Source: Quercus robur (taxonomy: Eukaryota > Streptophyta > Magnoliopsida > Fagales > Fagaceae). Taken from it: a stretch of 64,000 nt of DNA. The stretch covers positions 12,680,282 to 12,744,281 of the forward strand of contig NC_065535.1 of NCBI RefSeq assembly GCF_932294415.1, in the 5' to 3' direction. Of the stretch, positions 9,340-16,240 are shown in pieces. Every line of letters begins with the position of its first letter. Position 1 is the stretch's first letter. The notes beneath the pieces were generated by a model that did no database searches, was not told the DNA's origin, and saw nothing but the letters and a program-made list of their open reading frames with translations. Position numbers and translations under genes: made by a program.

Positions 9340-9720
9340 GGAGAATTAACACTAAAAATTCATTAAGGACAGAAGCCTGCTTCTCGGTTCAATCATTATC
9401 ACCAAGCAGGTGGAAACCTAACACTAAAAATTCTCTAAGGATAGAAGCCTGCTTCTCGATTCGATCATTATCACCGAGCAGGTGGAAACCTAACACTAAA
9501 AATTCTCTAAGGACAGAAGCCTGTTTCTTGATTCGATCATTATCACCGAGCAAGTGAAAACCTAACACTGAAAATTCTCTAAAGGCAGAATCCTACTTCT
9601 CGATTCGATCATTATCACCGAGCAGGTTCAAACTTAGCACTAAAAGTTCTCTAAGGACAAAAGCCTGCTTCCCGGGTTGTTTACTATCATCGAGCAGGTG
9701 AAAACTTTACACAAATATTT
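9340..9720 (+). repeat. 72-base tandem repeats downstream of element 1 pol
   Basis: About five decaying copies of a 72-base unit, each with AGAAGCCTGCTTCTCG, CATTATCACCGAGCAGG and AACACTAAAAATTC (first copies at 9371 and 9443). The array lies between integrase and the antisense ORF, the same place as the arrays of elements 2 and 3. Confidence 0.85.
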
Positions 9721-10221: not shown

Positions 10222-13200
10222 TTAAACTGTGGGGTATGCGGGTTGCGTCTGGGCGACGGTCTCGAGCGACTGCTGGTTCGATATGAAAGGTTGAAATTGG
10301 ATGTCTTCGCCTGGTTGGTTGCCAGCACGGGGGTTACTAGAAACTTCCACATCAACCAACTTCACATGGGAATTAATTTGTTCCACCAGCTCCTTCATAC
10401 TTGTCGTCTCCTCTTCATCAATAAGCCCCAGAGGATTCTGCACGGCTGGAGAAGGGCTCGGGAAGGGGATCTAACTGGGATCCCTTAGAGGAGAGTCCTT
10501 AGGGACCCCCAAGGCTTGTAGGAAAGCCAACCAACCTTCCTCGAAAGCTAGTGTAATGACCCCGTCCCAACTGTGTAGATATTGTCCACTTTGGGGCCCA
10601 TACCCCTCATGGTTTTGTTCTTCCCCAGGTTGCGCTGGGGAAAAGGCCTCTACACATTGAAGGGATATCATTCTTTATAAACACATTCTCATGTGCTTCC
10701 CTAGGCGATGTGGGATTCCATGGAATGCAAGACCCTCCTTTTTGGGTCACTACAATCCACCCCCCTTACGAGCACACGCGTCCTCGCGTGTGGGACCCAC
10801 ACTTCCGGCTAGGGCATGGCTCTGATACCATAACTGTAATGACCCCGTCCCAACTGTGTAGATATTGTCCACTTTGGGGCCCATACCCCTCATGGTTTTG
10901 TTCTTCCCCAGGTTGCGCTGGGGAAAAGGCCTCTACACATTGAAGGGAGATCATTCCTTATAAACACATTCCCGTGTGCTTCCCTAGGCGATGTGGGATT
11001 CCATAGAATGCAAGACCCCCCTTTTTGGGTCACTACAATCCACCCCCCTTACGGGCACACGCGTCCTTGCGTGTGGGGCCCACACTTCCGGCTAGGGCAT
11101 AGCTCTGATACCATAACTGTAATGACCCCGTCCCAACTGTGTAGATATTGTCCACTTTGGGGCCCATACCCCTCATGGTTTTGTTCTTCCCCAGGTTGCG
11201 CTGGGGAAAAGGCCTCTACACATTGAAGGGATATCATTCTTTATAAACACATTCTCATGTGCTTCCCTAGGCGATGTGGGATTCCATGGAATGCAAGACC
11301 CTCCTTTTTGGGTCACTACAATCCACCCCCCTTACGAGCACACGCGTCCTCGCGTGTGGGACCCACACTTCCGGCTAGGGCATGGCTCTGATACCATAAC
11401 TGTAATGACCCCGTCCCAACTGTGTAGATATTGTAGTGACCCAAAAAGGAGGGTCTTGCATTCCATGGAATCCCACATCGCCTAGGGAAGCACATGAGAA
11501 TGTGTTTATAAAGAATGATATCCCTTCAATGTGTAGAGGCCTTTTCCCCAGCGCAACCTGGGGAAGAACAAAACCATGAGGGGTATGGGCCCCAAAGTGG
11601 ACAATATCTACACAGTTGGGACGGGGTCGTTATAGTTATGGTATCAGAGCCATGCCCTAGCCGGAAGTGTGGGTCCCACACGCGAGGACGCGTGTGCTCG
11701 TAAGAGGGGTGGATTGTAGTGACCCAAAAAGGAGGGTCTTGCATTCCATGGAATCCCACATCGCCTAGGGAAGCACATGAGAATGTGTTTATAAAGAATG
11801 ATATCCCTTCAATGTGTAGAGGCCTTTTCCCCAGCGCAACCTGGGGAAAAACAAAACCGTGAGGGGTATGGACCCTAAAGCGGACAATATCTACATAGTT
11901 GGGGCGGGGTCGTTACAGCTAGTTTCTGAGCTTCCTGGATGACAGGCTCTACAGAGTTTTCCGCATCAGCAAATCCTTTATTATACCATTTGTTTTCACA
12001 GGCCTCCAGAGTTGCCCTTAAGTCAGCCAACTCCTTGGCCCGTGCAATGTTCATACTCGCAGCCTCCGCTAGTTTTAGCTCGGTCTCCCCTAGCTTAACC
12101 TCCAGCTTCAAGGATCTCTTTTCAGCTGCCACTTTAGCCTTCTCGGACGCGGCGGCCTTTTTCTCTGCAGTTGTAGCAGCCTTGGTTTTATCTTTAGTGG
12201 TTACCTCGACCACGTCCTTAAGGGCCTTCTCCCGATCGACAACCTCAGCAAGCTTCTTTAGCCACCCATTGAGTACATGAGCCAATTGAGCAGCTTGATG
12301 AAGCAATAATGATAAGTACAAAAACAGAAAAAATGTGCGCAGAAGTTAGTGGTAAACCAAAAAATAAGAGATTACCGCAATAGTATGCCATTGCAACCTT
12401 CTTCCCATGGGCTTGTTTGTGCCATCCTCAAAGGCGTGCACGTCCTCGGGCAAAAGGAGGCCGTGTGCCAAACTTTGGGCAACACGACCCCCCCTCACCT
12501 TTATCCCACACCCGTACACTCGCGATCGTTGGAAGAGGCTTGCCGTCCAGTTGGAATGTAGGCTACCACTCTGGCGCAACTCGGGAGGTGGACGCCACGT
12601 TCGTCCCGGTCTGAGCCATTGGCTCCTGGACGACAATGCCTCTTGATGGCTGGGGAGGAGTCCTTGTGGGCGCGTCACCCAAGCCAATGGGGGTCTGCTT
12701 GGCAATACGTTGCCTCTTCCAAGATCGGCCGGAAGAAGGAAGGGGAAGAGGGAGAGTTTGACCACGGCCCTAAGATGGTTGCTGCTGTGCGGCTGGCTGG
12801 GTGCCGGGTACGAAACAACTAACGGTCATCGTCTTTCATGTCACCATGTCTTCACCTCGATCAGATTCGGTTTTAGAGGAGCTAATAAATTCAGCAGTTG
12901 CTTCCTCGGTGTCCTGAACAGGAGCTTTGGGTTCACCAAAAGCCTTGGGTTCAATAGGGGCCTCGGGTTGAACGGGGGCTTCAGGTTGAACGGGCTCATG
13001 TGCCTGTTCTCGGCGGTGTTGAGGCACACAATCGGCCTATTCGTCCTGTATCGGTGCAAGTTCATCAGAACAAGTGTATCGTGGACCAAGGTCGTGAGCC
13101 TCGCCTACTATCAATCTCAGAGGAAGGAAGTTCAAGTGTTGTACGTCAATATAGGATAGGAGAGGACTGTCAACTAACAAAGCTTGGCTGAAGGATTGCC

Positions 13201-15429: not shown

Positions 15430-16240
15430 CCATTTATTTTATTTTATTTTTTTGAGAATGAAAACTTGGAATTTAATTAATCAAAGAGGCTAAATCAGCC
15501 TAAACAACATGTAGAATGTCTAGTGGTACGTCTTCCATCTAAAAAGTTAAATTGGGCGAATTAATTGCCTGTCTAACCAACGCATGGGCTACATTATTTT
15601 CTTGATGGCGAACACATACAAAACTAATGCGAAAGAGAGAAACTAGAAGTTTTACATCTTGAATTAAATGCCCATGTAGAGCTATGAAAACTTGGAATTT
15701 AATTAATCAAAGAGGCTAAATCAGCCTAAACAACATGTAGAATGTCTAGTGGTACGTCTTCCATCCAAAAAGTTAAATTGGGTGAATTAATTGCCTGTCT
15801 AACCAACACATGGGCTACATTATTTTCTTGATGGCGAACACATACAAAACTAACGCGAGAGAAGAGAGAAACTAGAAGTTTTACCTCTTGAATTAAATGC
15901 CCATGTAAAGCTAAAGAAGGTTCATGACTTGTAAGGTCCTTGAAGATAATGTTCGAGTCCCCCTAAAAAATAGCTTGAATGATGCTTATCTCCAAAGCAA
16001 ATTCTATAACTATTCTAATTGCCAAAGCTTCAACTTGAGCAACCGTAGCTGGGAGGGTGATTTGTTGCAATAGAAAGGCCATGACAGCTCCCTTTGAGTT
16101 GCATATCACTACTCCAATTCCAGCTGTATCCTGCTTTGAAAAAATTGATCCGTCATAGTTCACCTTGAATCCATCTAGGTCTAGAGGTTTCCACCTACTT
16201 TGTTGTATGTATTGGGTAAATGAAGGGTTTCAAAATTTGA
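15430..16240 (-). pseudogene. RNase H (RVT_3 type) relic of a plant LINE
   Basis: Read on the minus strand, 16235-15961 encodes the RNase H start (VNYDGSIFSKQDTAGIGVV, then QVEALAIRIVIEFAL), with the Asp of the first strand and the Glu of the helix present. A stop follows at about 15961, after which the same frame resumes with DSNIIFKDL and a tail ending MEDVPLDILHVV. An A-rich tail (TTTATTTTATTTTATTTTTTT on the plus strand, 15432-15453) closes the minus-strand 3' end. The last 226 bases are present twice. This is the C-terminal RNase H of a non-LTR element, 5'-truncated and no longer coding. Confidence 0.72.
15460..15914. repeat. 226-base tandem duplication in the RNase H relic
   Basis: Copy 1 is 15460-15685 and copy 2 is 15686-15914. 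The copies differ at a handful of positions plus one 3-base gap, so the duplication is fairly recent. It covers the coding tail and the short 3' untranslated part but not the A-rich tail. Confidence 0.85.

Follow-up and report, generated by a model that had tools for sequence, protein, structure and literature searches.

How does a block of TRIM units with opposed halves come to lie inside one target-site duplication? The question is raised by a window of 64,000 nucleotides from Quercus robur (contig NC_065535.1, positions 12,680,282 to 12,744,281), the whole stretch of DNA analysed here, in which positions 10552-11917, between two copies of GCTAG, hold five 203-bp LTRs, four 80-bp internal parts and a 31-bp LTR stub. 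Three units in minus orientation (L1-I1-L2-I2-L3-I3-stub) are followed by one copy in plus orientation (L4-I4-L5; Table 1). A preliminary description of the locus had given the same counts, which are correct, and the single perfect duplication that it reported is confirmed at both edges and agrees with paralogous sites that are empty. Its claim of a hairpin of several hundred bases also stands, as the inverted arms of the two halves measure 488-492 nt at 96-97% identity and a single strand of the block is predicted to fold into the expected long hairpin. The hallmarks of a TRIM are all present. The LTRs, TGTAGTGACC...TTACA with TG...CA ends, surround an 80-bp internal part, the primer binding site (PBS) TGGTATCAGAGCC, which we take to be the initiator-methionine tRNA site, follows the 5' LTR, a polypurine GGGGGG precedes the 3' LTR, and GCTAG provides the 5-bp duplication. 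Identity with Cassandra, another very small LTR element, was considered and rejected; Cassandra LTRs carry 5S rRNA, unlike the element in the window, where a 5S rRNA search of positions 10400-12100 gave no match up to E 1 and two unrelated matches far below the cut-off. Elsewhere in the window, a tandem repeat with a period of 72 bp occupies positions 9340-9699, about 0.9 kb to the left of the block, and positions 15458-15862 hold a 179-base direct repeat in two copies of 97% identity, 226 bases apart.

Table 1. Features of the composite TRIM block, in window coordinates; the sources X, Y and Z are putative and were assigned from diagnostic bases.
Feature	Position	Strand	Remarks
Left target-site duplication GCTAG	10547..10551	.	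Sequence and three paralogous sites without insert
LTR L1, source X	10552..10754	-	U5 end is the left outer terminus
Internal part I1	10755..10834	-	PBS TGGTATCAGAGCC, polypurine tract
LTR L2, mosaic	10835..11037	-	Positions 1-89 source Y; 190 and 198 source X
Internal part I2	11038..11117	-	4/80 differences from I1; read as source Y
LTR L3, source X	11118..11320	-	Identical to L1
Internal part I3	11321..11400	-	Identical to I1
LTR stub, U5 end only	11401..11431	-	Inner joint with L4; ATTGT at 11430-11434 fits both sides
LTR L4, source X except positions 198 and 202	11432..11634	+	Intact U3 end at inner joint
Internal part I4	11635..11714	+	1 difference from I1
LTR L5, mosaic	11715..11917	+	1-134 source X, 135 onward source Z; U5 end is the right outer terminus
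Right target-site duplication GCTAG	11918..11922	.	Perfect match to left copy

When joined, the flanks of the block match a many-copy repeat (40 matches among the best 40 of 109 candidates scored), and three full-length paralogous copies of this repeat (L083, L084 and L085), which lack the insert, are colinear with the joined flanks over 301 bases and identical to them at 258, 249 and 243 of these positions, respectively. The block is thus a single clean insertion of 1371 bp with a 5-bp duplication. Two reading frames in the flanks gave three weak Pfam matches, all below cut-off, one of them gypsy-type.

An ordinary insertion of an LTR element presents a U3 end at one edge and a U5 end at the other. 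As its left units are in minus and its right units in plus orientation, the block in the window presents U5 at both outer edges, and this provides a sharper reason for the earlier claim, which proved right, that plain unequal recombination is insufficient to explain it. Like outer ends within one duplication, the combination expected of an insertion from two donors, are found here as U5/U5 with GCTAG. Because inversion or conversion inside a block spares its outermost bases, a like-ended block in one matching duplication points to an event before or at integration, though at any single locus an inversion break within the terminal bases could mimic an end switch, since U3 and U5 termini are alike at 10 of 11 terminal bases in family A, the TRIM family of the window, and at 8 of 11 in a second family, B (LTR of 175 bp and internal part of 100 bp in the copy used). 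Outer end type together with the duplication nevertheless represents a simple test that can be read from sequence alone.

TRIM copies were sampled across the 786-Mb genome, in line with the search for opposed copies that the preliminary description had proposed, and include at least 14 like-ended family A blocks (window included) and six family B blocks with duplications. For family A, 57 loci yielded 59 blocks, from a sample in which 40 of 94 candidate regions were read; copy numbers are lower bounds, based on the best 40 candidates scored per search and the first 100 of 156 pattern matches. Ends were readable in 43 of the 59 blocks, and the 16 unreadable ones were excluded from the duplication tally. 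Among the readable blocks, 28 are opposite-ended and 15 like-ended (12 U5/U5 and 3 U3/U3). The 5-bp duplications of the like-ended blocks match at 5/5 positions in 11 cases and at 4/5 in three and are absent in one, those of the opposite-ended blocks match at 5/5 in 20, at 4/5 in two and at fewer in six, and among 1804 pairs of left and right 5-mers taken from different loci, only 4 match at 5/5 and 51 match at no fewer than four positions. Perfect duplications flank nine U5/U5 blocks (window GCTAG, L070 TCATC, L004 GTGAC, L079 GTAAT, L054 ATATC, L081 AAAGG, L076 GGCCT, L034 ATATC and X82 GAGGG, the last comprising L086, L082 and L087) and two U3/U3 blocks (L042 AGTCA and L080 GAAAT), with 4/5 matches at L041 and L059 (U5/U5) and at L067 (U3/U3). 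The like-ended block in which a duplication is absent, L088 (C2:20107700-20109200), has flanks that form an 18-bp perfect palindrome; it is a family B palindrome that was perhaps inserted at the centre of a palindromic target. Four of these loci (L080, L081, X82 and L088) had been selected for their opposed appearance. In the subset picked regardless of orientation (L040-L079), 9 of 27 resolved blocks, window included, are like-ended, a rate of one-third that is not clean because arrays have more chances of being listed than single copies. One orientation flip is present in 14 of the 15 like-ended blocks, as expected for two donors, and three are present in L059; with the two flips in the ordinary-ended L077, these extra flips require earlier joins. 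Between the halves of L079, at about 1256-1341, lies a stretch starting TGTAACACCCC that is unlike families A and B and may belong to the LTR of another, third TRIM family.

Family B was searched with one B unit of L041, giving 136 matches, 54 of which were taken into the clustering. These form 38 clusters, ten of them of mixed orientation, and the ten include L041 itself and a duplicate of another cluster. Of the eight new mixed-orientation clusters, two continue into further TRIM sequence and six have readable ends, called by eye and from the ends only, with interiors unread. All six have 5/5 duplications: ACATC, GTGTA, AAAGT, ATTAT and CTACC flank U5/U5 blocks and CTAAC flanks a U3/U3 block. 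The copy counted only once concerns two composites on C5 (6249396-6252558 and 6301648-6304810) that lie about 52 kb apart and have identical outer ends and flanks matching at 71/71 positions on both sides, which indicates a segmental duplication. Across both families, like-ended blocks with matching duplications number 16 U5/U5 against 4 U3/U3 (two-sided p 0.012); the unselected family A subset taken alone gives 7 against 2, which is not significant (p 0.18). In searches of the openly licensed PubMed Central literature, we found no description of this end-type rule or of recurrent like-ended LTR insertions.

Comparison of LTRs and internal parts, another analysis proposed at the outset, revealed that the arms of the block are mosaics of several source elements. 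The five window LTRs differ from one another at 0-14 of 203 positions, a likeness far beyond chance, and the outer pair, L1 and L5, at 8 of 203 in opposed orientation. The copies set against them came from 42 other loci and numbered 77, all complete and at least 88% identical; incomplete or more diverged copies were excluded, and L004, L059, L067 and L079 hence have no arm distances. A89 occurs in L1, L3, L4 and L5 and in 0 of the 77 other copies, while A19 occurs in the same four and in one other copy, and this distribution places source X in both arms. L4 follows source X but has the common G198, along with T202, found in no other copy. Both A19 and A89 are absent from L2, which has T33 and C64, alleles that co-occur in seven other copies, each of which carries G190 and G198; L2 itself has A190 and A198 as in L1 and L3, a pair found in one other copy. 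L5 follows source X through position 134 and then carries other alleles, those of source Z. The block thereby points to at least three sources, with X contributing to both arms, Y to one unit and Z to the last LTR. The switch of source falls within positions 89-135 in L5 and 89-190 in L2. TATAA lies at LTR positions 76-80, R usually starts about 30 bases after TATAA, and its start is therefore expected near position 106; the switches in L2 and L5 fit first-strand transfer at R between different RNAs. Most of the recombinant ONSEN LTRs were consistent with a first template switch in R, as proposed here for L2 and L5, though unlike the present case no opposed composites are described in the part of that study cited here (PMC5668417). 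L1-I1 and L3-I3 show 0 differences over 283 bases, and the event is therefore young. Twelve ordinary elements with perfect duplications show LTR differences of 0-3.5%.

The joins between modules provide further insight into how such arrays are built. When same-strand neighbours are read from internal part to LTR, family is kept in 117/117 cases (cross-family 0/117), whereas from LTR to internal part 18 of 111 joins are cross-family (Fisher p 1.1e-6, for modules that are not independent within one array). These cross-family joins fall where families A and B have a common primer binding site, and the one-sided pattern fits PBS-guided strand transfer, not crossing-over between LTRs of one family. 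Six more cross-family joins are not at the PBS and run from LTR to LTR, with the internal part absent or cut to a few bases. Among eight resolved same-orientation arrays with more than two LTRs, duplications match at 5/5 in five and at 4/5 in one and are lacking in L003 and L005, which suggests that later recombination may also act. Family B units are interleaved with family A at L041, L046, L052, L054, L059, L069, L071, L072, L076, L077, L034 and X82, and several of these mixed arrays sit inside one duplication.

At the inner joint of the window block, a broken LTR, the 31-bp stub, abuts the intact U3 end of L4. The stub can be extended to position 11434 (34 bp), as TGT is compatible with either side, and the string common to stub and L4 is ATTGT (11430-11434), counting the AT found in the element just before a U3 end. 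These two bases before TG stand beside the inner intact U3 end in 7 of 10 loci scored by eye (present in the window, L041, L034, L054, L070, L088 and L056; absent in L004, X82 and L059), against 4 of 28 outer U3 ends (p 0.002), in a tally where the window is ambiguous, its AT being also part of the broken LTR, and L056 is a block with unreadable ends. We read the inner AT as an unprocessed cDNA end. Other inner joints lie at an LTR hairpin in L042, at ACA in X82 and at TTG in L076, and in L070 and L004 an LTR is fused exactly to the spacer or PBS. The 25-base head-to-head joint of the window has one match in the genome at up to 3 mismatches, as does a reversed control pattern; a self-spreading multimer, whose joint should not be found just once, was rejected. 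A search for LTR(-) to PBS(+) joints gave 59 matches, one of which is the joint in L004, and the others listed look, by eye, like ordinary family B boundaries between LTR and PBS, so that no usable joint count results.

An explanation of the locus has to accommodate its anatomy, its single duplication, its U5/U5 ends, its mixed sources and the recurrence of such blocks in two families. We consider it probable that cDNAs derived from multiple templates were inserted by one integrase event acting on two U5 ends, with the inner ends joined via microhomology. The templates would have been RNAs from three or more related TRIM copies (X, Y and Z), reverse-transcribed together. L2 and L5 would owe their mosaic structure to first-strand transfers at R, and the tandem units of PBS, internal part and LTR would stem from transfers at the primer binding site. 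One integrase complex would then have brought together two cDNAs, a minus-oriented array and a plus-oriented monomer, and taken the U5 end of each, resulting in a single 5-bp staggered insertion with GCTAG on both sides. The unused inner ends, i.e., the broken-LTR stub and the intact U3 end with its AT, would have been linked at the few bases they have in common, whether ahead of integration or later, when host end joining sealed the break. The co-packaging of the cDNAs, the order of these steps and the agent of the inner join are parts of the scheme that we infer; as to whether the arms were separate molecules at integration, a join made before it and one made after it give the same sequence. 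Against the scheme stand the like-ended L088, which has no duplication, the additional flips in L059 and L077, the six LTR-to-LTR joins away from the PBS and the duplication-free arrays L003 and L005. Of the three options put forward in the preliminary description, integration of an already rearranged multimer comes closest to this scheme.

Fold-back, the second of those options, holds that short inverted repeats let a single cDNA, or a chromosomal array that had broken, fold over and extend into a palindrome by copying its own arm. The joint of L042 at a hairpin inside the LTR, the exact fusions in L070 and L004 and the LTR termini, which are almost inverted repeats of each other, suit this explanation, and the arms of L070 are only 2.5% apart, which would permit fold-back there. 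At the window locus it is disfavoured, as aligning the arms in either mirror register leaves mismatches (17 and 21 of 486 positions), while L1-I1 and L3-I3, two units of one arm, are identical, and cross-arm LTR distances in L041 (2.0-7.4%) and X82 (5.0-7.0%) lie in the range seen between loci (median 6.5%). We regard fold-back as unlikely overall. An equally doubtful explanation is rearrangement after insertion, whereby an ordinary TRIM or tandem array would have gained its opposed halves through later inversion, ectopic repair or gene conversion. Inner changes spare the outermost bases, and every break would need to hit the last few bases to leave like ends and matching duplications in 14 family A and six family B blocks, although same-orientation arrays without a duplication do exist (L003 and L005) and L077 has an inverted middle between ordinary U3/U5 ends. 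An assembly artefact at repeated sequence is very improbable, since the matching blocks each own a duplication, which a misjoin would not make; the block is just 1.4 kb, and PCR and sequencing served to verify maize TA-TRIMs, shown in one figure with an inverted example, according to the part of the source cited here (PMC4717578). Least credible, and rejected here, is the remaining option that a second TRIM inserted into the LTR of the first and lost its own duplication: the stub does represent a break inside an LTR, but the five bases left of L4 (GATAT) disagree with those right of L5 (GCTAG), L5 runs precisely up to the outer duplication, and 172 bp of the target LTR are missing beyond the stub, so that only an additional exact deletion could rescue this option.

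Multi-template assembly followed by a single integration on two U5 ends has partial precedents in several systems. Gao et al. (2016) described TA-TRIMs as arrays of more than two LTRs inside a 5-bp duplication, including one inverted maize case with its target-site duplication (PMC4717578), and the window block, with five LTRs and four internal parts, has the at least three LTRs and at least two internal parts of that class. That report was the only description of an inverted TRIM found in openly licensed PubMed Central papers. The part of it cited here gives the one inverted case without end types, a mosaic of mixed sources or a mechanism, whereas 20 like-ended blocks in two families with an end-type pattern are described here; the recurrence and the end-type rule thus go beyond the single published inverted maize TRIM. 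Sabot and Schulman (2007) proposed template switching for same-orientation complexes with a 5-bp duplication (PMC1950507). Those complexes resemble the present block in that reverse transcription combined several elements, which then entered the target in one step with a 5-bp duplication, but the complexes have one orientation and near-identical outer LTRs, while the halves here are opposed and the outer LTRs distinct. Long arrays of a very small LTR element are also known for Cassandra, where they are tandem and where their origin is discussed in terms of template switching and of an element that is small compared with the virus-like particle (PMC7215508, in the part cited). The corresponding part of the Wukong paper favours recombination between neighbouring copies (PMC4528315); tandem TRIM arrays have been ascribed both to neighbour recombination and to template switching. 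The integration step has its precedent in purified HIV-1 integrase, which uses two U5 ends in preference to U3/U5 or U3/U3 pairs and gives mostly 5-bp duplications among sequenced products (PMC8742673; a figure legend there gives a substrate of 355 bp). This offers a parallel for U5/U5 insertion of two short donors, though, unlike the loci described here, the work as presented in the part cited concerns a purified retroviral enzyme, involves no genomic loci and leaves the inner ends unjoined.

The end-type test here points to multi-cDNA assembly and single integration in 20 blocks of two families. A broader proposal, to which we give somewhat less than even credence, is that TRIM cDNAs of about 0.5 kb may often be too short and stiff for integrase to pair their own ends, that it then uses one end from each of two cDNAs with U5/U5 preferred, and that host microhomology joining closes the inner gap. 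If this is true, a considerable fraction of TRIM insertions (in the unselected subset, 9 of 27 resolved blocks, with the listing bias given above) would have arisen naturally from two donors. They would parallel in vivo the U5/U5 products that purified retroviral integrase makes, and would keep supplying plant genomes with palindromes and arrays of mixed family. Should two-donor integration be right, genomes would archive the end choice of integrase in vivo. Such insertions put hairpins of several hundred bases into host sequence, where they may be a source of small RNAs.
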